From positions 1,378,501 through 1,442,500 of the forward strand of contig JAIVFI010000001.1 in the NCBI GenBank assembly GCA_025558095.1: 64,000 nt of DNA. Direction: 5' to 3'. Positions 3,733 to 63,800 of this stretch are shown one piece after another. The notes under the pieces were generated by a model. That model saw only the letters and a list, made by a program, of their open reading frames with translations, ran no database searches and had not been told where the DNA came from. The stretch comes from Hyaloraphidium curvatum (lineage: Eukaryota; Monoblepharomycota; Hyaloraphidiomycetes; Hyaloraphidiales; Hyaloraphidiaceae). Positions within the stretch are counted from its first letter, which is position 1. Every line of letters begins with the position of its first letter. The position numbers were made by a program, and so were the translations under genes.

Positions 3733-3835
3733 ACCCCGCGGAGCACGCTGGAACGACATCAAGTCGACCGACAACAGCCAGCGCTCCTCTACTCGAAGCC
3801 AGAACCCACTCCAACCAACCCAGGCACATCGACCG

Positions 3836-4489
3836 ATGGCCCGCCTGAACGCCACCCTCCTCGCCCTCGCCGGCGCCCTCATCGCCGCCATGCTGTCTCC
3901 CGCAAACGCGCAACTCCTTGACCTCAACACGACGGACCCTGCACCGATGCCCTGCGTCGCCGACGTCGCCTTCGCCCTGCCCAACAACGTGCCGTGGTCG
4001 CCCTCGCCCGTCAGGGCCCCCGGTCTCGTCCTCGGCCCCGTCAAGCCGGGCTCGTACTACGGGGTGATGGTCGACACCGTCAAGGCCTTCTCGGACAACT
4101 CGACGCACGGATGCTCGGCACCGGGTACCGGCGGCGACTGCGGCGACCAGTCGGGCCAGCTCTGGCTGACCGTCAACGCCGCGGGCATCACGGCCATGTA
4201 CTCGCCCCGGGCTTCGGGGCCCGTGGTCGGCCGCGTGAGGCAGATGTCGATGTGGTGGTCGTGCGCCAGGCCGGAAAGCTGGGAGCAGATCCGCGCGGGG
4301 GCCGCCACCCAGAAGACCTTCGACGCCTGCACGGACCTCTACTCGTACACCGTCGCGTCGACGGACTCGCAGAAGCCGTTCCCGCAGTGCGCGGACGGGT
4401 ACTATGTCGTGTTGCAGGCGTACGAGTACTCGCTGCCGCAGAGCTGCATCATCCCGGGGTGCCCCGCCAACTCGACTCATCAGGCTTAG
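3836..4489 (+). CDS. secreted cysteine-rich protein, intact copy
   Basis: A single-exon 217-residue protein. Residues 1-26 form a classical signal peptide (MARLNATLLALAGALIAAML, cleavage likely after PANA). The mature part has at least eight cysteines, in contexts such as PMPC, HGC, GDCGDQ, WWSC, DAC, PQC and QSCIIPGC, which points to disulfide bonds and secretion. No catalytic motif or known domain was recognised, so an extracellular protein of unknown function is the fair call. It is divergent to the WW gene. Copy 2 at 16729-17383 is closely similar but carries a one-base insertion. Confidence 0.8.
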   Translation: MARLNATLLALAGALIAAMLSPANAQLLDLNTTDPAPMPCVADVAFALPNNVPWSPSPVRAPGLVLGPVKPGSYYGVMVDTVKAFSDNSTHGCSAPGTGGDCGDQSGQLWLTVNAAGITAMYSPRASGPVVGRVRQMSMWWSCARPESWEQIRAGAATQKTFDACTDLYSYTVASTDSQKPFPQCADGYYVVLQAYEYSLPQSCIIPGCPANSTHQA

Positions 4490-4620
4490 CTGCGACTGCA
4501 ACTCGGTGTACTCAGTCAATTGATGCACCTGCCAACCTATTGTGTTCGAGGGAGCTTCATGTATCCGCAGCCCGGTTCTGCGCGGTCCGGCATCGCTGCA
4601 TTTGCACCGATGCCAGTGCT

Positions 4621-6328
4621 TCAGACGTTCGGGCAGGCCGATTCGACCGTGAGGAACACCCCCGCCCCGCGCAGGATGCTCCAGACGCCGAACGCGACGG
4701 TGAACCCAGTGATGCACAGCGTCCGCACCGCCCCGAACGACACGGGCAACCCGAGGAAGCGCTGCCTTTGCTCGCCGATCTCGGCGAAAGAGCCCAACAC
4801 CTCCGCATGCCGCGCCAAGGCCGCCGAAAGCCGCGTCATGCGCGCATCGCCGTCGGGGAGGCGGGCCGCGCGCGCGGCAGCGGCGGTGGCGAGCTCGCGG
4901 GCCTCACGCCGGGCCTGGAGGTAGAGGTCCGCGGCGGCGGAGACCTGCGTGTTGCCCGTTGCAACGATGATGAGCTCCAAGACGAGGAGGAAGAGCAATA
5001 GGGCAAGAGTGAGGAGGAATCCAAGCGGGATGCAAGATCCTGTGGCCTGCAAAATGAAAGGTCAGCCGATGATCATCGGGGAGGCAGACCGAGGGAACCA
5101 ACGATAAAGACGACGATATACACGACGAAGCTTACTATAGCCGACGAGTAAAAGCTTTGTACGTAGCCAAGCTGGACGACACGCTGGTCGAATGCTGTCG
5201 CAACCCAGGGCTGGAGCGCTTGGTACGGCTCTGCGTCCGGAAGGGAGTCCAATGCAGCTGCAGACACCTCCGTGGAAGCTTCAAGAGCATCCCGGTAACG
5301 TCGAAGGAACGCCGACATATGCAGCCTCAGCGCCCTGTGTGTTAGACGGGCATTCAAATTGAGGACATGGACGCTGGTGCCGAAAACACCCAGGGTGTTT
5401 AGAACCTGAGTGTCGAACTGGAAAATCACTAAGATTTGATCAGGAGATCTTCGACGTCGCGCCTCGGCGTCCGCTTACAGGTCAGCGAAGCCATGACGCA
5501 CGTCCACGGGGTTCCCCAAGTTGCCTCTCCGAAGGTGAACAGAAGCGTCCACAGGGCGCAACAGTAAGTGATGAAAAGGTACGCGAAAGTTGGCAATGTC
5601 TGCAACGTCAGCCGGTCGACAAGGATGCGTCCGGGAATCCGACCGGCACACAACATCCTCCCGCACGGGCAAAGCCGGTCCCCGGGCCCATGGGCCAGCA
5701 AACTGTCCGGTCCCGCGATGTCGACTTTGGGCTCGAGGTCCGGACGTGCAGGACTCGCGGGTCCTCCGACGAGCTGTATCCAGCGCACCAGCGGCGCAAG
5801 CGCATGTCCGTCGAGGCCCACATTTCCCCGCGCGGCCGGGCCATCTGAGGTCTTCTCGGATCTCAGCCAGACAACGAAGCGGTAGATGAATATGTTCACG
5901 GCCCAGGCCAGGAAAAGGCACACGTTATCTGCCACGGCGGCGGGGATATAATCGGCCGGGGGTCCGGCGGGTTGGAGGGGGAACCTACAGGTTGCGAGCT
6001 GCTTCGTCCCAAACCGGCCGTCGTTCCGCCACCAAATCGTGGCCATAACTATCATCGTGGTAGTGAAGCCCAGCAACCGCCTCAGCTGCGGGCGGTAGCT
6101 GAGAAAGGGAGACAGCTGGATCCGCAGAGCGAGCCGCAGCCCGGGGTACGGCTCCAGGGCGCGCAGCATCTCGGCCTCCGTCAGCGGTTCTGATCGGAGC
6201 TCGTGCGCCGGGTCCGCTTCCTCGCTCCGCAGGTCGAAGGTGCCGCCGAGGGACCGCTTCGCGGGCGACGCCGGCACGACCGGGAAGACGGCCCGGAACT
6301 CCTCCGGGCCCAGCAGGAGGCGAGGCAT
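4621..6328 (-). CDS. multipass membrane protein, unknown family, three exons
   Basis: The start is the ATG at 6328 (MPRLLLGPEEFRAVFPVVPA). Exon 1 runs 6328-5479 and encodes an amphipathic N-terminal region and four or so hydrophobic helices, including 'LLGFTTTMIVMATIWW' and 'LPTFAYLFITYCCALWTLLF'. Exon 2 runs from 5428 to about 5115 and holds a long soluble helix and 'SSAIVSFVVYIVVFI'. Exon 3, to the stop at 4621, holds 'GFLLTLALLLFLLVLELIIV', a charged Ala/Arg helix and a last hydrophobic segment. The first intron (5429-5478) has GTAAGC...ATCTTAG, an unusual canonical donor in this window; the second starts GTTGGT and ends TTTTGCAG. The overall shape resembles fungal multi-TM proteins without assigned function. 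No transporter or channel signature was recognised. Confidence 0.65.
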
Positions 6329-45176: not shown

Positions 45177-47171
45177 TCACAAGGTCGGCTGCGGGTTGGC
45201 CGCCGGGGGCGGGACTGGCTCCGCCGCCAGCTTCTCGTACGTCGCCCTCGCGTTCCGCGCCGCGTTGCGGACCACTTCCGGCAATGCGGGGTGGATCTGG
45301 AAAGCGGCCAGGTTAGGGTGTGCGGGCATTTGCGCGGCGGTAGACGACGTACATAGATGAATCGCAAAATGTCGTCGAGGGTCGCACCGAACTGCAATGA
45401 GGGCACAATTCAGAATCAGCACGTCACGCAGCACACGAGTGACCCACGTAAAGGTACGAGATGCAGAGATGGATCATGTCCGACGCCTCGGCTCCGATGA
45501 TGTGCGCGCCCACCAGCCGCTTGGTCGTCTTTTCGAAGAGCAGCTTGGCAAAGCCCTCCTCCGACAGCAGAGCGTCGCCCATGGCCGTTGACCGGTATCC
45601 GGCCTTGCCGATGATGACGTCCATGCCCATCATACGGGCCTCCTGGGTGGTCAGCCCGACGCCCCCGACCTGGGGGTTGGAAAAGATGGCGTGCGGGACC
45701 GGTGGGTACGAGACGGGCGCGGCGTGGCCCTTGAAGACGTGATCGAACACGTATTCTCCCTCGAAGTTGGCCGAATGGCGGAACAGGTACCGCCCGATGA
45801 TGTCGCCCCACGCGTAGACGCCAGGGACAGCGGTCTGGAAGTGGTCGTCCACCTTGAGGAACCCGGCCTTGTCGAGCACCATGTCCGTGTTCTCTTTGAT
45901 GCCCAGCTCGTCCGTGTTGGGCACCACGCCCGTGGCGATGAAGAGGCCCTTGGCCTGGAGCGTCTGGCGCTCCTTGGTCTTGACGTTCTCGATCTCCACG
46001 GTGAAGGTGTGCGTCGCCTCGTCGAACGACACGCGGGTCGGGTGCACGCCAAAGTGGCACGGATACTTGGACGAGAAGACGCGCTCAAACTCGGTGATGA
46101 CCTCCTCGTCCTCGGCGCGGATCATCTGGCTCCGCACGAGCACGGTGATCTTGGTCCCAGTCTGGGCCAGGTAGTGCGAGAGTTCCGTGGCGATGTAGCC
46201 GCCCCCGACAACGATGCAGGACTCGAGGGGCTCGGTGTAGCGGAGGACCTCCTGGTAGGTGAGGAAAGGCGTCCCCTTGAGGCCCGGAACGTTCGGAATA
46301 TGGGCGCGGCAGCCCGCAGGGACAAAGATGCGGTCGCCGGTAATGTAGCGGGTCTCGGATCCGGGTTTGGTGAGCTCGATCAGCTTGTTGGCCACGAAAC
46401 GCGCCGCATAACCGTGGAAGGTGGAGAGGTTCGCGGTCCTTCAAAAGGAAGTGAGCCAAAAGGCTCCTAACCAGAAGGCAAGAACCCACTTGGCATACAA
46501 CGGAGCAATGCTGTTGGAATCAGCGTCGATTGCGGCGCTGACACGCTCGACGAGCTTCCTCCGGTCCGTCCAGATCTTTTCGGCGTCGATCCCGTTGATG
46601 TCGAACTTGGCCGCGTGCCGGACCTCCTGGAGCACGTCAGCCGGATGAATGAGCATCTTGGACGGGATGCAGCCCCTGAGAATGAAGCGTATCGGAATGA
46701 GCAGGCTGCACATTGTCGCCGCACGTCTCCCAAGCAGCACCTGTTGAGGCAAGTGCCCCCGTACGGGCCCTTCTCGATGATGGCCGTCTTGAATCCCATA
46801 CCAGCAGCAGGCCGTGTGATTTTTGAGCCCGAACCGGATCCGATGACCACCACGTCGAAGTGCTCGACGTTCGGGTACTTTGACGCGTCCCATTTGTCAT
46901 GGGGCAATCCGGCGTCCTTCACAGGTGGCAGGGGAGCCATGGCGGTCACAGTTCGCCTGAAAGCGGTTCGTGCGGAGCTGGAGATCGGTCTTGAGGTCGG
47001 CCGTTTGTGCGCCGAAGTGAGCTCGCGGAGCTGCTCTCGAGATGCTTCTCTTGACGCGACCAGAGGGTGCCGCCCAGAAACAGCGCCGAAGAGGCGCGAT
47101 TCTAGTGTGCGCGTGCGGAGACTGCAATATCCGGAAGCGATGGCCCGCGAGGAAGGTCGGGCAACGTTCAT
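45177..47171 (-). CDS. flavin disulfide oxidoreductase, mycothione-reductase/dihydrolipoamide-dehydrogenase type
   Basis: Four exons. The N-terminal FAD motif is 'VVIGSGSGSKITRPAAGMGF', a GSGSG variant typical of mycothione-reductase-like enzymes. The redox-active disulfide GGTCLNRGCIPSK is split by an intron exactly between its halves. An NAD(P)-binding site is 'CIVVGGGYIATELSHYLAQ', the second FAD contact is 'VPGVYAWGDI', and the last exon supplies 'IHPALPEVV', whose His-Pro pair is the proton acceptor from the partner subunit. The enzyme should reduce a disulfide or lipoyl-type substrate with NAD(P)H; the true substrate is open. If translation starts at 47171 the first 75 residues are Arg/Ser-rich and look like a mitochondrial presequence; the ATG at about 46940 (MAPLPPVKDA) would give a cytosolic form. 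Confidence 0.88.
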
Positions 47172-47352
47172 AAACGTCCACCTGTTGTTTGCCGCCCGCC
47201 CGAGCAGCACGGAATCACGAAACCGGCGGCAAAACCAACGCCGAATCTTCCCGGCAAGAGAATGGCGCTATCTGGAAATCATCGCCAGGGTAATCATTAC
47301 CAACTCCAAGTTACAGGGAATCTCCAACGGGGTATCTGGGAGTCACATCCGA

Positions 47353-50300
47353 TCAATCGTCCAGCATCTCCACGTCGTCGTCTCCAGCTCCATGCGTCGG
47401 CCCGTTCCCGAGCTCCTGAATCCACTGCTTCTTCGCCCGGTCCCAAACTGCCGGGGGCAGGCTGGGGATGTCAAGCTCAGGGCGCCGCTTCCTCATGATA
47501 TCGATGTCGACCGTGTCGAGGGCGAAAAGACGGTGGATGTAGACCTAAGACCGCGAATGAGCCACGTAACCGGAAGCGAAGCATCTCGTGGTTCACCATC
47601 GGCTTCGTCTGGCCGTAACGGACCGCACGGCCAATGGCCTGCGTCTCCTTTGCATCGAAGCTGGCCTGCGTCGGGGTCTTGAGCGGGCTCAGGAAGATGA
47701 TGTGGTTGGCCACGGTGAGGTTGGCGCCGCTGGCTGTCTCGTTATCGAGGTTCAGAAGGAGCACTCGATGCTTGGAGTTGGGACTCTGGAAGTCGTCGAG
47801 GATTTTCGACTTCGCGTTGGCAGTGCCCTTGTCCAACGTTGCGCAGGTGATGCCGGCGTCGCCGAGAGCCTCCGCCACCTTCTTGAACATATCGAAGAAC
47901 TGCACAAATATCAGGCAGCGCTCGCCTGCGGGAATCCTGCGCACGATGTCGACGAGTCGCTGAAGCTTGGCGCCGAACTTGCCCGAGGTCTCTTCCGCGC
48001 CGACAGAGGAAAGAATCGAAAGGGGCACGACGTTCGTCGCCCGAACAGGGGCGGCGCAAACGTCCGCATCATGCACACAGCGCTGCTGGCCAGCAAAGTT
48101 CTTCAGGCAGTCCAAGCAGGCGACGTGTCCGCAGCAAGACAGCACCCCCATCTCGACCCCGTCTCCCTGGTGCGAACACACAGAGCGTTCCAGGGCGGCG
48201 TCCCGCTCGGCACCCCCGCGCTGGATGTTCCGGATGGTTTCGAAGAAGCGCAGCGAACGACAGCGACCGGCGAGTTCCTTGCTGATCTTGCGCAGCACGA
48301 TGACGCGCTCGCGCAGCTCCCAGATGGTGTCGGAGAGTTTGCCGGACCGGTCGACGACGTCGTACTTCTTGAGCTTCCCTTGGGGAGTGAATCCCTCGTT
48401 GTCCATGATCTCCGCCAGGAGCCGGTCCGCGAACCTGTCGCCGCTCAGTCTCAGGGCGAAAACCGAGCGGGCGAACTCCTCAATCGGCGGCTTCGGCACT
48501 TCCGGCGGGTATCCACCGCCAGCGGCGATCTGCAAGGCGAGAATGCGGCAATAGGCGACTTCGCGAGCAAAGTCGACCTGGCATGCCAGACGCTGGTCGC
48601 GGCGGACCTTGGCAATGTCGTCGCAGGCTTCCTGTGCGTTCTCCGCCGTACTCTCCCTGGTGAAGTCGGGAGAGAAGTGCGCAGCACGCTTCAGGAGTGC
48701 CTCCTCGGCATCTTTGCTGTCTGCGAGAACCTCTTGCAGCCGATTGTTCCGGTCACCGACAGAGACATCCTTGAACGTCTTTGGCGCCTTACTGCGTTAT
48801 CGAGAAGGCGAAGTTAGACTGGTGAGACACTCAACGAAGATGGTGAAGACTTACGCCAGCATCTCGATCGAAAGCAGGTGGTGCTCCAGCTCCAGATAGA
48901 TCGTGCGCTCGTCAGACGGCAGGCACACCTGGTGACAGATGTCGGTCCGAGGGATGAGATCGATCTCCGCCACATTCTGCCGGAGGAACTTGTCGAGGAA
49001 AGCCTGCGCAACGTCGTCGCGGGCGGCGTGCCAGGCGGACGAGTGCACCTCGCGATACCCGTGGAACTGTTCCGCCGCAGTCTTGACGGTCTTCTGCGCC
49101 ACAATGCCCTGTTTGTCGTCGTCGACACCGAGGTGGATGCCGAGGAAAGCAGCGATGCCCTTGATGGACCCAAAGTCCTCGACGGGGGGCGTGCCCGAGA
49201 GAATCCAACGGCTGGAAGCCTTGATGCCGGTCATTGCGGCGAGAGGAAGTCCCTCGAGGTACGTATACTCGTCGATGATGAGCCTCTTGAAGGAGAACAT
49301 CTGCAGAGGGGCGCCCTTGATGTTGCGGAAGCTCTCCTTGACGTTCTTGTCCCCGAGGTTGGTCTTCACATCGTCCTTGCGTTTCGGTTCCTTCTTGGGC
49401 TAATCGCAGCGACGGTCGTAAGCGTTTCTGGGAATGAGAGCTCAGACGACTTCTGACGTACCTTCGGCTGCGCCTTCCCAGACTTTTTGCGACCCTGCTC
49501 GGCCAAATCTGCGGCGACCTTGGCGCGTTTCGCGGCAAGTGCGACGGCGCGCTTCTTGGCATCCGCAATCCGCTGATTGACCTCGTCGATCTTGTTGTCC
49601 TTCAGTAGCCGCGTTTGCTCGCGGAGCCCTGCCAAAACGCCCGATATCGTGTCCTGGAAAAGACGGCCTCCGTTCTTGTCGCTCAGGAGATCCTCCTCAG
49701 ATCCCGCGAAATGGCCAAGACGTTCGAGGTAGACAGGCGACTTCAAGAGCGTGGCGTTCGTGATAATGACATCGGCCTCCTGAAGGTCCTTGATCGAGTG
49801 TTTGTAGAGCTGGGCCACGCTGGGAATCTCGAGAATCTTCAGGACGCCCGAAGAAACAAACTTGTCAAACTCGCTCTTCCACTGCTTGCCCAGATGTGCC
49901 GGGGTTACGACCAGGGTGGCCTTCAAGGGAATCAGAGCATCGTCCGCCACGGGAAGTTGGATGTCCCGAGTCTGGCGGATGAGTCCGATCGAAATGGCCG
50001 TCTTGCCGTAGCCGACCTGGTCCGCAATGACTCCTCCACGGGCCTCGACAAGACGGCTAGCATGTGCCTCGACGCGCAGGCCAAAAGCGGGGAGGTCGGC
50101 TTCAACAATCTCCTTCTCCTCGAAGGTGAACTTTTCGGGGTCCTTCTCCTGCTCCAGCATCCAAGACAACGACCTGAGCTGCTCCGGCCTCAGGTTCAGC
50201 TTAAAGCTCGGAGGCTGGGCGTGCTGAGGATCATTCCGGTTGCTGCTCAGCGTGAAGACGCGCTTGGCATGCTCGTGATCGCCGGTGTAGTCCTGAGCGA

Positions 50301-53300
50301 GCTTCCACGTGACACGAGGAGGCTGCACGTTGGGCTTCCGTGGCAGCATCGACAAGGCTTGATGCGCAAGGGACGCCGCGTTGAGGCTCAGCCGGAGGAA
50401 CCCAAGCCCCGAGATCGGATCGGCACGGATCTGCACCATGAACGGCGCAGGCCGGTTCTTGATGGCAATCTCGTACTCCGTCGCCTCGCGAGCATCTTCC
50501 ACCGGCATCCATTGCTTTGCAGTCTGAACCCACTCGATCGCAGGTCCCAGTGGCGCGCAGCTCGAGCATCTCTCGTCAGATGCCTGGTGAGCGCGGCTGT
50601 GAGCGATCTGGCGAAGCGAGGGCAAGAAATGAGGCCTACCGCGGTCTCGCCGGCAATCGAAAGCTCAGGAAGCAAAGACGTGACCCATGCCAACTTCCGG
50701 AACGTGGATGATCCTTCGCGCAGGAGGTCGATGTCGCGCCACGAACTGCTTTTCCAAAGATCATCGAGCTCCGTGCCTTGGACGATCGGAAGGGGGAACT
50801 CGCACTTGAGGACCACGTGGGCGTGCCGGCAGGACGCAGTCGCCGCGGACGTGTCGATGGTCCTGGCAATCTCGTAGTCCACGTTTTGTCGCTCCCCTTG
50901 CAGATGGGCAGGGACAAAGTGCACCGCCTCCGCGGGGACCCACTTGCCCATCACGTGGAGAGGCACGACCTCTGTGCCGGGCTTGTCGTTGGTGCGCCAC
51001 TTTGCGTCGATCTTGGCAACGATTGGGCGGAAGTACTTGAAACCGCCGCGAGAAGAGTCCGTCGAAAACACGAAGGCGTCTTCGTCGAGCGGAGCGGTGG
51101 GCGTAGCGTCGTGGAAGAAGAAGAGCGGCGGCAAACCCCGGTCCTCTGCCGTCTCCTTCTTGCGGTGCAGAGAGTTCTGCGAGGTGCCGCACTTGTCGAG
51201 CAGAACATACGTGCCCGAAATAGGGCGGTCGAGCTCGGCTTCGACAACAGGAGAAGCGGTGACCGCGTACTGGCTCCAACGCTTCGTGTCCTTGAACTCC
51301 GGCATCACGACCCCGAGGCTCGCTTGCCAAGAGTCGACCAACTCCCCCTCGCCAACGAACTCCACGTCGAACTTCTGCTTCGTCGGGAGGCAGATCTCCC
51401 ACTTGCCGCCCGTTAGACTCGAGGTCTCCTTGTCGAGCTTCAGACGAGCCACGGGGTTCTTGAAAAGAGCGCGGAGGTCGTGACCGACGGGCAGATCTTT
51501 GTCCGGCATTCCGAACAGGAGCCATTCCGGCGCCTGCGGCTGCAACCTGAGCTCCAAGCGCCCGTACGGGGACTCGTAGGAAGCAATCCAACACCGGTCC
51601 CGGATCAGCGCGCGGAAGTAGACGGTGGCGCGCTGCATCCGGTGAACCGCGTCAGCCCACATCGTCCAGTCGGCATCCTTGATGGCGCCCTCGCTGCATG
51701 CGGCGCGAAGAGCATCCAGTTCACCAAGTCCGAGCCCGTCAAGCTGGAGGCACATCGGAAGAAGCGACTTGATGCTCTGTTCCACAGATTTGGGCGGCAA
51801 GCGCGACGCAGGAGCCCGCTCGGTCGCGCTGTTCGGGGATTCGGAGGCCTCGGCAACGGCAGAGCTCTGCCGGATCCAATCGGCTTCCGTCAGCTCGGAT
51901 CCGTCAAAGGTGCACGTCAGGTGTTCCGGGCGCCCGCCGCACGACTTGCAAGCCGTGTTGTGGCACGCAACGCACTGCATGACCGTTTCGGCGGCGATCT
52001 TGTCCCCTGCCTCGCACATGCATCGGCGGGAGCTCAGGTTCGCCTGGCGCAGAATGTCCCTGAGCGCAACTTGGGTGGTGCCCGAAAGCGCAAAAGACCC
52101 CCGGTGCAGCGCGTCGTCCTCGACAACATCCGCGGTCGCCCTGCTCTGCTGCTGCTCCGACCCGCCGGGCGTGCCGTCACCAGGATTCAGGAGATCCTTG
52201 CCGAACGAGAGCGCCGACAGCATTGCCGCCGAAATGACGGTCGTAGACATGGCGTTTCCGGCCAGGTCCGCGAGCTGGTCCTCCGTCTCCACCGTCAGGT
52301 GCAGATCCATGTAATCGATTCCCTGGAGCGCGAGGGCCTCGCGACCGGTCGCGGGCCCGCCTCGCGACGTGATGTAGGGGATCATGGACGGCGTGAGGCA
52401 GGGCGACAGGCCAATGTGACCCGAGTGGGTGTTGCGATCGACGTTCTGGGACGCGACGACCCAAAGTCAGGCGACGAATCGGTGCTGCTCATGCAGCCAC
52501 GCACCTGGCTGACGTTCCAGAGGAAAGTCTTGAAGCTGGGATCCGTGAGCTCCGACGTCGCAACCTTGAGGGTGTTGATGTCGAGCAAATCGACGACGCG
52601 CTCCGTCTGCGAGGTGAACCAGTCGTTCCAGGCGAAATCGAGGCCCTTGCAGACGCCGGCTTGGTGCCACGCGGTGAGCGGCCTCTTGTTCCCCAGCATG
52701 TTCTCCTCGCGGTAGCGGGCGTGCCGGGACTCGCACTTGCTCCAGTCGTTCCTGGAGTTCCTGCTCTTGCCCTCGGCGGTCTGCTTGCGGGCGTAGAAGG
52801 CGCGGGCCTTGGCGATGTCGGGGTGGTCGACCGGCAGCAGGTAGCCGTCGATCGGGACGGTCCAACCTCGCTTGAGGCTCTCGACGCGCTCCTTCCACTC
52901 CTCCGAGATGCCCTCGACGCGGCACGCCATGAAGTACCCCCGAGTGCGGGTGTGGGGGATCGAGAACTCCTTCGTGTCGAGCCTGGAAAAGAGGTCGTGA
53001 GAAGAGACTCAACGACGCTCGCTCCAAAGCGAAGCTCACCTGACGTGAGTGCCGAAGTACCCGATCTCGTTGAAGTGCTCCTCGATCGACTTCCCAGCGT
53101 ACTTAGGCTTCTTGCCGGCCTCCTTGGCCTTCTGGATCTTCTCCTGGACGCCCTGCTTGGTCCAGGGGGCACCGCAGACGTTCTCGAGGATGACGATGGG
53201 CGGGAGGTGCTTCTTGACGTAGCGCAGCATGCCGAAGAAGGTCGACCCGGACTCGCCCATCTCCTGGAGGTTCTTCTGCTTGTTGTTGAGGCCGGAGAAG

Positions 53301-55613
53301 TCCACGCAAGACGTGCCGGCGACGAGGATCTGCAAGCGAAGGCATGAGAACCAGCCGGCCCGATCGCCCGACGAGACCCACGTCGATGTCGCCGGGCACG
53401 GCGACCAGCGCACCGTACGCCGTGTGCGCCTCGTCCCTCCCGAGCTCCTTCACGTCCCGGAACAGGATCGGCGGCTTGAAGTTGCGCTCGATGTAGGCCT
53501 GCTTGAAGGGCTCGATCTCGCACGAGAAGACGGATTCGAACTTGAACAAGATCCCGAACTCTTTGAAGAGCGCGTTCTGGATCTTTGTCAGTGCGATGAT
53601 GGGCGCTTCGGTACCCCTGCGAAGCGCGAAGGGAGTCAGCAACCACACATTCACGAAGCAAAGAAGTGCCCACGAGCACATCGTCGCGATCCTCAGAGAC
53701 CTCCCGTTCAGGTGGGCGACGAGCTCCGCGAGGAGTCCCTGCTCCGGCGTCTGCAAAGGAAAGATGAGGCGGCCATCGTCCGGCTCGCACGGGCAACCCA
53801 CGTTCATGCGCTTGACCTGGTCCGAGATGTGCTCCTGCGGCGTCTGGAGCGGAGCGAGGTGCTTGGCGATCTTGCTCTTGTGGGGCGCCCCGCCGTCCTG
53901 GTTCTCGTCCTCGTCCTCCTCGTCGTCGTCCGAGCCCTTCTTGGCCTTCTTCCTGCCGGGCTTGGCCTTGACCGGCTGCTTCTTGGTCGCCTCCTTGGCC
54001 CGCACGTGCAGCCAGTTCGAACCCGAGCCCGAGGCCGAAGCGCGCTCCTCATCCTCGCCCGAGGCCGAATCCTTGTCGGCAGCCCGCTCCTCCCACGCGG
54101 CCTCGACGTCCTCCTCCGACAGGAACTTGACGGGCTTGCCCTTGGGCCGGATGTCGACCTTCTTCCTGTTCACGCCGTTCTCGTCCTCCTCCCCCTCGGA
54201 GCTCTCCTCCTCCTTCTCGGCCTCCTTCTCGGCGCCGGATCCCTCGGCCTCCCCGTTCTCGTCGTCCGAGCTCTTGCGGGCGCGCTTCTTGGCGGGCGCC
54301 TTTTTGCCGGGAGACTTCTTGGCCTTGCCCGCCGCGGCCTTGCCCTTGCCCTTGGAGGAAGGCCCGGGCTTGGGCTCGGAGTCGCCGCCATCGTCCGACT
54401 CGGAGTCGGCGGGGCGCTTGGCCTTGCCCTTGCCCTTCGGGGTGGCCGCCTTGGCCTTGGGCCGCTCCTCCTCCATCTCCGCATCCCCCTCCGATTCCGA
54501 TGCGACGGCAGGGCGCTTCAGCTTGCGGCGAGGCGGTGAGGGCGCCTTTTCCTTGCCCTTGCCCTTGGACTTGCGCTTGCTCTTGGCATCCGAGTCGTCG
54601 TCCTCGGACGCCGGCTCGCTCTCCGCGGAGCTCGACTCGGCCTCCTCCGACGACGAGGACGACGATTCCGAGGGCGAGCCGCTGCCCGCAAAGTCGGACC
54701 CGCTCTCCTCGTCCTCGTCCTCGTCCTCATCCTCCTCGTCCGACGGCGGGTCGACGACCTCGATCTTGTTGCGCTTGGGCTCCGGCTGCTTCTTGGGCGC
54801 GGCCTTGGGCGACGCCTTGCGCTTGCGTGCGGGTGGCGCGGGGGAGTCGTCCTCGTCGGCCGCGGCCGCCTTGCCGGGCTTGCGGACGGGCTTGACGCCC
54901 GACGCCGGCGGTGCTGACTTGGCTTTGGCGGCTGCGAGCGAGCAAGTCGGAGGTTAGCCAGCGACCGCGAAAACCCCAGAGAATCGACCAACCAGGCTTG
55001 GCAGTCCCCACGTCTTCATCTTGCTCGGACGCAGATGCGCCGGCGGGGCTCTTGGGCGAGGCCGCCTTGGGCGAACCGCTGGCGGGCTGGGCCTTGGATT
55101 GCGGCGGCGCCGATGCCGACGCCGGCGCCGCGGCCGGTGCGGGAGATGCCTTGAAGAAGGAGTCGAGCTTCTTCTGGTTGGGGTCGTCCTTCTTCTTGGT
55201 CGAGGCCTGGGCAGGGGGGGCGGGGGAGTCAGCTCGGTTCCACGCGGATCCAAGAGACGAATGCGGCCGGAGGAGGCTCTCCTGCCTCCATTGCAACATC
55301 CTATTGCAGAATAAAGCAGGCTGAGGAGCCTCACCTGGGCAGAGGCTGCGGACTTTCCCTGGGTCTGCTTCGACGGTCCGGTCTTCCCCCCCGCGGCGGG
55401 CGTCTTTGCCGCTGCGGCGCCGTTCCGTGCCTTCGGCGGCGACGACGTGACCACGGTGACCGGCGCAATGTCCTCCTCGAGCATCTCGTCCGCCGAGTCG
55501 ACGACGATGGGGGCCGCTGGGACGGCGGAACCTCCTTTGGCGGTCTTGGGCGGCGGCGCGTCGTCCGCCGCCGGCGCCGCGCCGTCGCGGTCCGGCGACA
55601 AGTGCGTGAGCAT
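47353..55613 (-). CDS. DNMT5-type DNA cytosine methyltransferase fused to RING-bearing SNF2 ATPase
   Basis: An 8.3-kb gene of roughly 2,500 residues in about a dozen exons, from the ATG at 55613 to the stop at 47353. The N-terminus is disordered, acidic and basic in turns (54000-55600), with a PCNA-binding-type QKKLDSFF. The methyltransferase follows: motif I 'IATMCSGTEAPI', restored by splicing; catalytic Cys in 'LVAGTSCVDFSGLNNKQ' (codon 53306-53308); ENV in 'VILENVCGAPW'; target recognition region; and motif X 'LADLAGNAMSTTV'. A Cys-rich zinc-like cluster ('CMCEAG...CVACHNTACKSC') leads to the SNF2 motor: Walker A 'DQVGYGKTA', DEYT box 'LIIDEYTYLEG', 'RWILSGTPP', a RING finger between the lobes (about 48050-48200) and the C-lobe 'QAIGRAVRYGQTKPM'. 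DNMT5 in Cryptococcus maintains CG methylation using ATP. Confidence 0.92.
55153..55176 (-). other. PIP box in the N-terminus of the DNMT5-like protein
   Basis: These 24 bases encode QKKLDSFF, matching the consensus QxxLxxFF/Y for binding PCNA, the replication clamp. It sits in exon 2, in a low-complexity Pro/Ala/Ser-rich region with flanking lysines (STKKKDDPN before it), which is the usual setting of functional PIP boxes. Confidence 0.75.
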
Positions 55614-60851: not shown

Positions 60852-63800
60852 CTACGCCCCAAGAATCAGCTCCTCATCTACATTCAAACCAAAAGCGACC
60901 GGCGCGGGGGCCGGAGCGTTGACAGCGGCGGCTTCGGTGCACAGCTGAAGCCAGTGTTGGAGTTGGGCCGCGACGCCAAGAGCCCAGGCCACCGCGATCC
61001 GTTCGCGGAAGCGCCGCACAAAACGAGAGTAAAGGCCATCGAGGTCCACGGGCTGCCCATCGCGGCCGACGATCCCGGGATACTGGATGCGCCCCATCTC
61101 CGAGGAGAAGCGCGAGAAAGTGGCAGAGACAGCGCTGTACGAATCAAAAGCAAGCACGATCAGAGGGTAGAAGTTGGCGTTGAAGGCGAAACGGGAGTAG
61201 TCCTTCCTGGCGGCCTCGACCCGCCGTTCGACTGCGTGGCCCGGGACCGAGAAGACCAGGCCCGTGTGCAAATGGGCCATAGAGGTGAGGGTCTTGATCT
61301 CGAGCAACCACCGTTTCCGGGTTTCGCGGTGCGTGATGAGAATGTCGCCAAGGCGGCCAGCATCCGCAGGCGTGGGCGGGGTGACAGTCTCGTAGCCATG
61401 CGCAAGGAGGTTTGGCGGCATGGGGTGCACGCGGAGGAGCGGGATGGAGCGAAGCGCCGCGCGGATGGCCGCGCAAATGTCGTCGTGACCAGGACTGAAG
61501 AGATCCCGGCCATAGCAGCCCGAGAACGCGTGCTCCCCCGTCAGCGACATGGCCGATCGCTTGCAGCCCCGCCGGCAGGGCAAGGAAAGACCAGGGTAGT
61601 CGGCCTCGTGCAGGAGCGGGAGGCAAAGCCGGAAGCGTACAAGTAAGCGGAAAAAGTTGTTGCGAATGTGGTTGGCAAGCAGCGCGGGAGAGGCAGTCAG
61701 GAAAGCCGACAGGCCGTCCTGCGCCTGGACGAGCCGCTTGCGGCGCTCCAGACCAGCGGAAGTGTCGGGTTGCAAGGCAATCAGAGCCGCGAGGCGGCGC
61801 TGGTCCTCGAGACGCGTAAGGTCGCTCTGCAGGCCGTGCCAGACCGGCTGAGCGAAGAAACTGGCGTCCGCAGGGAGCGTACGGCGGGCGGGCGCGGCGC
61901 CCACCGGTTGCCCAGCACGCGCAGCCTCGGCGTACGCTGCGGCCGTGTCATCCTCGACACGCTCAAAGGCGGGGCGGAGGGCCTCGATGACGGGAACCAG
62001 TTCCCGCACGTGCTCCACGCCCACACCCCGGGCCGAGGTTCGAAGACCAAGCATGGCGTCCAAGGGGCCCGCCGTGAGGTTGAGTGAAGACAGGTAAGCC
62101 GCCGAGGCCACCTTCTCCGATGACAGAAGCCCCATCCCCGAGTAGTGCAGACCCAAGAATACCTGCTCCCGCACAGTCCGACCCTCCACCGACAGCGGAT
62201 CCAGATCCTCGGCCCGATCTCCCAGCAAGCGCAAGAAGGTGGTGAAAAGCGCGTTGTCAAGACGTCGAGCAAAGGGTTGGGTAACCGAGGGGGGGAGAAT
62301 GCGGAGCCAAAACGAGAAGAGCTGGGTCACACAGAGACGGAGGAGGGAGTACAGGCCCTGGAGGGAGGGGATGTCGGCCGGCATGGCGTAGCCGAGCGCG
62401 GCGCGCTCGATTTCATCGAGAAGAGCGGCAATGGAGTCGATCTTGGCCGCGAGGAACGACTCCACATAGGCAGGGGTGCCGACCGGGGCACCTACCACCT
62501 TGAGGCCGCACGAGCGAGCGAAGTCAGGCGAGCCCGGGGCCGACGCCGTGGCATGCACCTCGGGGTCGGCCTCGTGAGGCGGGAAGCCAGCGACGCGGAT
62601 GTTGTGGGCCGCACCGGCCGCGCGCACCCGCTCCAGCACGGCCGGGTTCGTCGAGAGCGAAAGCAGGTAGCTCTTGTCCGGGCGGTGGGTCATGCCGAGG
62701 GAAGAAAGGCCGTCACGCACCTCTCCCAGGACGGCCATGACCGAGTCCAGCGGCCCGACCACGGTGAGGTCGTCGAGGTACCCAAGGATGAGGCAGTCGG
62801 GGTGCCCAGAGCGGATGGGCCGCAGCATGCGGCTCATGGCGCAGGAGAAGATGGCAGACGACAGCGGGTCGCCCTGGATGTTGCCCTCGTACATGGTGAT
62901 CCGGAAAAGGAGCTCCGCCGAGCGCCGGTCGCGGAAGTAGGCGTGGGAAGGGCGCGAGTAAACGAGGTTGTAGTACGGGATAAGCTGAGGCACCTGGCGG
63001 ACCACCTCGCGCGCGAAGAGGCGGCGCAGCGTATTGAAGGCGTTCCTAGAGTCGACCTTCATGACGACGTGGTCGGGGAAGGCCGCCAGCCACGCGTTCA
63101 CCGCGTGGGCGGTCGCCTCCGCGCCCCCGTCCACCCCGTGACCCAGGTCCTCCTGCTGTTGGAGCTTCCTCAGAAGAGCCTTGTGCCGCACGGCCAGGTA
63201 CGAGCCCGCGAGCCGCATGATGCCCTCCATAATGCCAATCGGCCGGAGCCCCCCCTCCGGCTTGAGCAGAGGGACGAGGATTTGATCCGTGAGGAGCGGC
63301 CGGAGCATGGGGGTGTCGAGTCGGCCAGTGCACACGCCGTGCACCATGGCCGCCAGCGGGCGGAGCTTCCGCCGCGTCGCGTCGTTCTCGCAGTTGTGCA
63401 CGATGAAAAGTTTGGCCATGCTGAAACCCGACATGCCGGCCCCCACGCCGTCCTTCTTCCGGCGCAACCGGGCCCAGATGTCCTCCAGGAAAGCCGCGTC
63501 CGTGTAGGCAGGGCAGGGCGCGGGCGCGTTGGGGGGCAGAGACAGCCGACACAGCGGCTCTCCCTCCCGCGGCCCCGGGTACAGCTCCTCCAGTTCCGCC
63601 TGAAGCGTGGGCGTGAAGCCAGCCGGAACGGCCTCCCCCGAGAGGGCCGCGGACGCAGCACCAGGAGCGCCCTTCAAGGCGGCAAGCACGATGGACTTGA
63701 AGAGCTGGTAGTTGAGCGGCCGCAGCCCGTCCCGCCGCGCGCCCCGGTTGACCTGACGGGCGGCGAAGTAGTTCTGCTCGTACATGTAGTCCCCCGACAT

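Follow-up and report, generated by a model that had tools for sequence, protein, structure and literature searches.

We analyzed a 64,000-nucleotide stretch (the window) of contig C1 from the genome assembly of Hyaloraphidium curvatum (31.9 Mb, 55 contigs), an aquatic and little-studied fungus of the Monoblepharomycota. The window contains a minus-strand gene in which a C5-cytosine methyltransferase and an SNF2 ATPase are combined in a single polypeptide, with the methyltransferase N-terminal. Judged by its sequence, this gene is the full-length DNMT5 of H. curvatum and adds one more member to an established family. Because Hyaloraphidium is a fungus, finding a DNMT5 here is unsurprising in itself. 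The noteworthy part is a PCNA-interacting-protein (PIP) box in the N-terminal tail, which was noticed first in the Hyaloraphidium gene and then across fungal DNMT5 proteins. We think it probable that fungal DNMT5 docks on PCNA through this predicted motif and that docking helps to maintain CG methylation at newly replicated DNA.

The canonical PIP box, Q-x-x-[ILM]-x-x-[FY]-[FY], binds PCNA. The sequence QKKLDSFF in the tail of the window protein matches this consensus and is predicted to bind PCNA. The tail would be accessible, judging from composition only: by a simple count, the first 540 residues are rich in charged and small ones. The tail of the window protein matched no Pfam domain, and hence no chromodomain, and inspection by eye of three frames in the 247 bases upstream of the start revealed no chromodomain-like stretch.

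To count PIP boxes, we scored the pattern Q..[ILM]..[FY][FY] in the tails of DNMT5 homologues, that is, before motif I of the methyltransferase. The set of 159 DNMT5 rows consisted of the best 120 of 518 and the best 120 of 621 matches from two overlapping homologue searches. Eleven rows were excluded from the count, ten with fewer than 60 residues ahead of motif I and one without a recognised motif I. A canonical PIP box was present in 105 of 148 tails, compared to 0.05 expected by shuffling and 0 of 148 in reversed tails; the first homologue set alone gave 79 of 112. There was a single match to the pattern in the remaining 326,221 amino acids of the same proteins. Its frequency and its confinement to the tail both go well beyond what chance would give. 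Lysine or arginine directly preceded the motif in 101 of the 105 PIP-bearing rows and directly followed it in 103, and in 95 the motif started at residues 7-23. PIP boxes near the protein start are also found in several repair and replication proteins.

The motif was distributed unevenly among groups. Canonical boxes were found in Hyaloraphidium (1/1), Chytridiomycota (2/3), rows from Ascomycota (6/8, some of them environmental) and the rest of the rows, of which nearly all are named as Agaricomycetes (96/115), and were missing from Tremellomycetes (0/17) and rusts (0/4). With a relaxed pattern, the counts (and those expected) were 1/1 (0.00) for Hyaloraphidium, 2/3 (0.03) for Chytridiomycota, 6/8 (0.18) for Ascomycota, 107/115 (1.07) for the remaining rows, 4/17 (0.52) for Tremellomycetes and 1/4 (0.16) for rusts. 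Rows that failed the canonical pattern included variant forms, for instance QATLDSFV and QSTLNAFI. Some of these rows begin near the methyltransferase, and their gene models may be truncated. Some Tremellomycetes have a remnant that lacks the glutamine, such as GIKGFF, and QGDLRNWF occurs in Kockovaella, a Tremellomycete whose Pfam list contains no chromodomain. In a quick tree built from 36 rows, Hyaloraphidium and the Tremellomycetes lay opposite the Chytridiomycota, Ascomycota, Agaricomycetes and rusts. Because canonical boxes occur on both sides of this split, we favour an old origin of the motif within fungi.

The chromodomain (PF00385) was missing from the Pfam lists of 130 of the 148 tested rows; although present in Tremellomycetes, it is not a defining feature of DNMT5. 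A canonical PIP box was found in 1 of 18 rows with a chromodomain versus 104 of 130 without; these rows are not independent, and the contrast is mainly one of one taxonomic group against another. The chytrid Borealophlyctis has both a chromodomain and a PIP box. In Gaertneriomyces sp. JEL0708 (P0089), a chromodomain lies outside the tail at about residue 1454, in the SNF2 half, and is either a real insertion or a gene-model error.

We propose that PCNA on newly replicated DNA would bind the PIP box and bring DNMT5 to hemimethylated sites, that a UHRF1-like SRA protein would assist in locating these sites, and that the SNF2 motor would then enable the methyltransferase to act. By analogy to the Cryptococcus enzyme, 5-methylcytosine at hemimethylated CG would be restored with the use of ATP. 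PCNA docking would be ancestral in fungal DNMT5, and the chromodomain would offer a second means of docking. In Tremellomycetes, Cryptococcus among them, the PIP box would have been lost and the chromodomain retained. With somewhat less confidence than in docking itself, we lean towards a history in which DNMT5 was ancestrally PCNA-tethered and replication-coupled in fungi, the chromodomain took the place of this tether in the Cryptococcus lineage, and the reverse happened in Hyaloraphidium, which lost its chromodomain but kept the PIP box.

This proposal runs against current opinion on DNMT5. Passages of a 2026 review state that DNMT5, unlike DNMT1, acts independently of the replication apparatus, that the way in which it finds hemimethylated sites is only partly resolved, and that adaptors outside Cryptococcus are unknown (PMC13297926). 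We found no paper in the open-licence literature that joins DNMT5 and a PIP box, and the passages on PCNA in two articles (PMC13297926, PMC11343034) propose none. If the proposal is correct, two different families of maintenance methylases have come to the replication fork by the same route, and the conserved PCNA motif provides a concrete, testable answer to how DNMT5 finds hemimethylated sites. It would also caution against treating the Cryptococcus enzyme as a typical DNMT5.

Several observations, including the CpG statistics described below, weigh against PCNA-coupled maintenance. Most of the PIP-bearing rows are from related Agaricomycetes, and the independent evidence comes from a handful of deep lineages. 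Rusts and one of the three testable chytrids have no canonical motif. The DNMT5 rows examined were all fungal. PIP boxes are short, and binding of PCNA by the DNMT5 tail is a prediction. In addition, the genome contains a DNMT1-type gene with a replication-foci domain, which could carry out replication-coupled maintenance instead.

It is possible, and in our view unlikely, that the protein is an ordinary DNMT5 ortholog and maintains CG methylation in the manner of the Cryptococcus enzyme, through recognition of hemimethylated CG and an SRA partner, and that the tail motif is due to chance or has a function unrelated to PCNA. The review's placement of DNMT5 apart from the replication apparatus (PMC13297926) is consistent with this alternative, as is full-length orthology to the Cryptococcus enzyme. 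Among solved structures, the window protein matched chain 7r76_A with 1587 bits (E = 0), and the next chain scored 28. The methyltransferase part scored 562 bits and the rest 1032 bits, and the alignment covered residues 548-1078 and 1115-2482. The depositors of 7r76 named it 'DNA repair protein Rad8'; we take it to be the DNMT5 of Cryptococcus neoformans. This identification fits a passage on cryo-EM work in the review (PMC13297926). The DNMT5-like identity proposed in the initial annotation was thus borne out by alignment to the Cryptococcus enzyme, with orthology holding along the whole protein. Against the ordinary-ortholog alternative, the motif is too frequent and too tail-confined for chance, and the window protein lacks the chromodomain that the Cryptococcus enzyme has.

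We consider it improbable that the DNMT5 gene is intact in an unmethylated genome and that the protein has another role. The initial annotation had predicted CG methylation in H. curvatum, which sequence data neither demonstrate nor exclude. CpG observed/expected ratios were calculated for the window, with a result of 1.12, and for loci L001-L019, of which the seven chromodomain loci of retroelement type (L013-L019) gave 1.18-1.26. The stretches checked thus bear no lasting trace of CpG methylation. We also compared singleton substitutions in three young retroelement families (19/30 loci). The excess of transitions at CpG was small (p = 0.016; 30/1847 at CpG sites versus 23/2817 at other C/G sites). 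CpG transversions, too, were somewhat raised (11/1847 versus 12/2817). Between copies, the transition rates at CpG and other sites were 0.0027 and 0.0013 at 99-100% identity and about equal at 95-99%; older copies had no CpG excess or a reversed one, for example 0.045 versus 0.073 at 90-95%. The retroelement substitutions are at best a weak hint of methylation. We had considered CpG depletion as proof of methylation and rejected it, as none was found in the stretches or substitutions checked. Passages of the review describe early-diverging fungi as dominated by N6-methyladenine (PMC13297926), also in keeping with an unmethylated genome. A literature search gave no title on DNA methylation in H. 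curvatum. A search for Tet/JBP oxidases gave no match, and since control genomes gave none either, it is uninformative on their absence.

Against an unmethylated genome stand the conserved catalytic residues of DNMT5 and the SRA, zf-4CXXC_R1, Pre-SET and DNMT1-type matches. Candidate partner genes in the genome, which favour the proposed PCNA-docked DNMT5, are an SRA protein closest to UHRF1, a PCNA gene, two zf-4CXXC_R1 (CDCA7-type) matches identified by domain family only, one chromoshadow match and two Pre-SET matches. One of the Pre-SET matches (contig 29) lies directly downstream of a split chromodomain match and is followed by what appears by eye to be a SET-like stretch. The DNMT1-type methyltransferase (L050 4145-7651, minus strand, contig C4) has a sub-threshold BAH match and the replication-foci domain just upstream; we treated it as a single gene from these domain matches, short of a full splice model.

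Least probable, in our estimate, is a PIP box that serves mismatch or post-replication DNA repair, in keeping with the Rad5-like SNF2 part, and not methylation maintenance: the C-terminal half weakly matches Rad5 and SNF2 remodellers and some homologues are annotated Rad8 or Rad5, but nearly all of the 159 rows retain intact methyltransferase motifs, which argues that methylation is under selection too.

The coordinates of the gene and its features are given in the table. The start and stop positions in the initial annotation were exact, and all of the motifs that it named were located: GTSCVDFSG (residues 650-658), the ENV of ENVCG (694-698), LAGNAMSTT (962-970), DQVGYGKT and DEYT. Pfam boundaries were 588-974 for DNA_methylase, 1638-1782 for SNF2 and 2334-2452 for Helicase_C, in that order. 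The sequence GTSCVD(Y/F)S is present in the window protein and in 158 of the 159 DNMT5 rows (counting the public H. curvatum protein P0001). In the Cys-rich region that follows the methyltransferase, six cysteines and one histidine are kept in 34 of 34 aligned rows. The initial annotation had also placed a RING finger inside the SNF2 ATPase. Conserved cysteines and histidines are indeed present between the SNF2 halves (positions 2264, 2279, 2281, 2284, 2287, 2297 and 2304, kept in 85-100% of the 34 aligned rows), and Pfam gave no RING match, so that we refer to this region as a RING-like insertion. The spellings of the Walker A and DExx motifs, which had been flagged as unlike generic SNF2 proteins, are ordinary for DNMT5 by sequence comparison: ADQVGYGKT occurs in 84 and DEYT in 136 of 159 rows.

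Features of the H. curvatum DNMT5 gene (window coordinates) and of the HIRAN-methyltransferase genes (locus coordinates)
Feature	Position	Strand	Basis or remark
DNMT5 gene, ATG to stop	47353..55613	-	Spliced model; 12 exons, 2520 residues
Exons 1-6	55613-55335, 55206-54993, 54931-53802, 53750-53674, 53616-53382, 53329-53040	-	Spliced model
Exons 7-12	52982-52505, 52445-50640, 50583-49462, 49399-48855, 48791-47597, 47544-47353	-	Spliced model
N-terminal tail, exons 1-3, charged, apparently disordered	53802..55613	-	Residue count, no disorder predictor
Predicted PIP box QKKLDSFF, residues 104-111	55153..55176	-	Codons read; conserved in homologues
C5-cytosine methyltransferase domain, residues 561-974	52227..53693	-	Pfam PF00145 (62 bits) and 7r76 alignment; intron-interrupted
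Motif I residues C566-S567 of ATMCSGTE	53616..53678	-	Split by intron 53673-53617
Catalytic Cys653 of GTSC	53306..53308	-	Invariant in 34 aligned rows
Cys-rich region, probably zinc-binding, residues 1043-1076	51921..52022	-	Conservation
SNF2 ATPase, first part, residues 1638-1782	49747..50181	-	Pfam PF00176
Walker A DQVGYGKT, residues 1691-1698	49999-50022	-	Motif read in protein
DExx box DEYT, residues 1920-1923	49262..49273	-	Motif read in protein
RING-like insertion, probably zinc-binding, residues 2264-2304	48056..48178	-	Conserved Cys/His, no Pfam match
Helicase_C half of SNF2 ATPase, residues 2334-2452	47612..47968	-	Pfam PF00271
HIRAN-methyltransferase genes	L052 about 3815-6200 (contig C11); L051 3411-5323 (contig C31)	-	Domain matches

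The 11 introns of the DNMT5 gene are all GT-AG and 51-128 nucleotides long, and there is no internal stop in the 2520 residues. The top protein match was P0001, annotated as a 'hypothetical protein', which is identical to our model but for two residues of motif I. The public model uses a donor 6 nucleotides upstream, and the C-S of ATMCSGTE is lost. Because P0001 and P0019 are the only two of the 159 DNMT5 rows without the full motif, the splice choice that retains C566-S567 is the likelier one, and we prefer it over the public model. Just downstream of the gene, at 46467-47267 (minus strand), is a neighbour whose start resembles dihydrolipoyl dehydrogenase or mycothione/glutathione reductase, with partial matches far below the cut-off. 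Elsewhere in the window, a reverse-transcriptase match at 62589-63263 (minus strand) lies in a 1318-codon open frame; many matches in the genome are similar in score and frame length. Runs of reverse-transcriptase matches occur at regular steps of about 11 kb on contig C11, 1.2 kb on C36 and 2 kb on C37.

Quick trees built separately for the two halves, methyltransferase and SNF2 (23 rows per tree, all DNMT5, with no outgroup family), both placed the window protein beside the Tremellomycete DNMT5s. Because the two halves fall in the same place, there is no apparent recent chimera. Constraining Hyaloraphidium and the chytrids to one clade lowered the log-likelihood by 113.85 and was rejected (p-AU = 1.4e-48). 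Fixed telling columns were shared by Hyaloraphidium with Tremellomycetes alone at four positions, with rusts alone at two, with Agaricomycetes alone at one and with chytrids alone at none. The branches concerned are long. When Tremellomycetes and rusts were removed, the position of Hyaloraphidium no longer conflicted with the species tree, and the Ascomycota rows remained split. We considered two classes of DNMT5 and do not build on the idea, given the few telling columns, the long branches and the loss of the conflict without Tremellomycetes and rusts. The grouping of Hyaloraphidium with Tremellomycetes is of uncertain origin and could be due to ancient duplication or long-branch attraction.

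From gene content, DNMT1-, DNMT2-, DNMT3-like and DNMT5 genes seem to coexist in Hyaloraphidium. In addition to the DNMT2 gene, we found two paralogous genes, 55% identical, in which a HIRAN domain is fused to a C5-methyltransferase. The best solved relatives of the contig C11 gene, the one run against structures, were DNMT3B and DNMT3A, followed by DRM2. Fungi are stated to lack DNMT3 in passages of two articles (PMC10538959, PMC13297926). Further relatives of the HIRAN-methyltransferases were for the most part environmental; HIRAN is likewise in the Pfam lists of three of these relatives, and a tree did not resolve their origin. In the public model P0121 (DFJ74DRAFT_704975), a short-chain dehydrogenase is seemingly fused to the HIRAN-methyltransferase gene, according to its Pfam list. 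Two similar-looking, single-frame C5-methyltransferase open reading frames (L001 1474-2859 and L004 1207-2571) lie ~25 kb apart on opposite strands of contig C12; the L001 frame had weak matches only, to HaeIII and to chains named DNMT1.

Among the closest known systems is the Cryptococcus DNMT5 (7r76), which matches the window protein over nearly the whole core and has the same order of methyltransferase, Cys-rich region and SNF2 ATPase with its RING-like insert. The two differ in their tails: residues 29-98 of the 7r76 chain resemble a chromodomain, and inspection by eye of about residues 29-305 revealed no canonical PIP box, whereas the window protein has a PIP box and no chromodomain. The DNMT5 of the Agaricomycete Trametes sanguinea (P0023) likewise has a Pfam list without a chromodomain and a PIP box, QKPITSFF, close to the start, but identity between the proteins is 42%, across 67% of the part that was compared, and the box is at residue 13 rather than 104. 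The chytrid Borealophlyctis nickersoniae protein (P0021) also has a tail PIP box (QATLDSFF); unlike the window protein, it has an N-terminal chromodomain and groups in the tree with Agaricomycetes and Ascomycetes. Finally, the coupling of animal DNMT1 to PCNA, as described in passages of the review (PMC13297926), parallels the tether that we propose for DNMT5. DNMT1 nevertheless belongs to another family and has no SNF2 motor, and Hyaloraphidium has its own DNMT1-type gene with a replication-foci domain.

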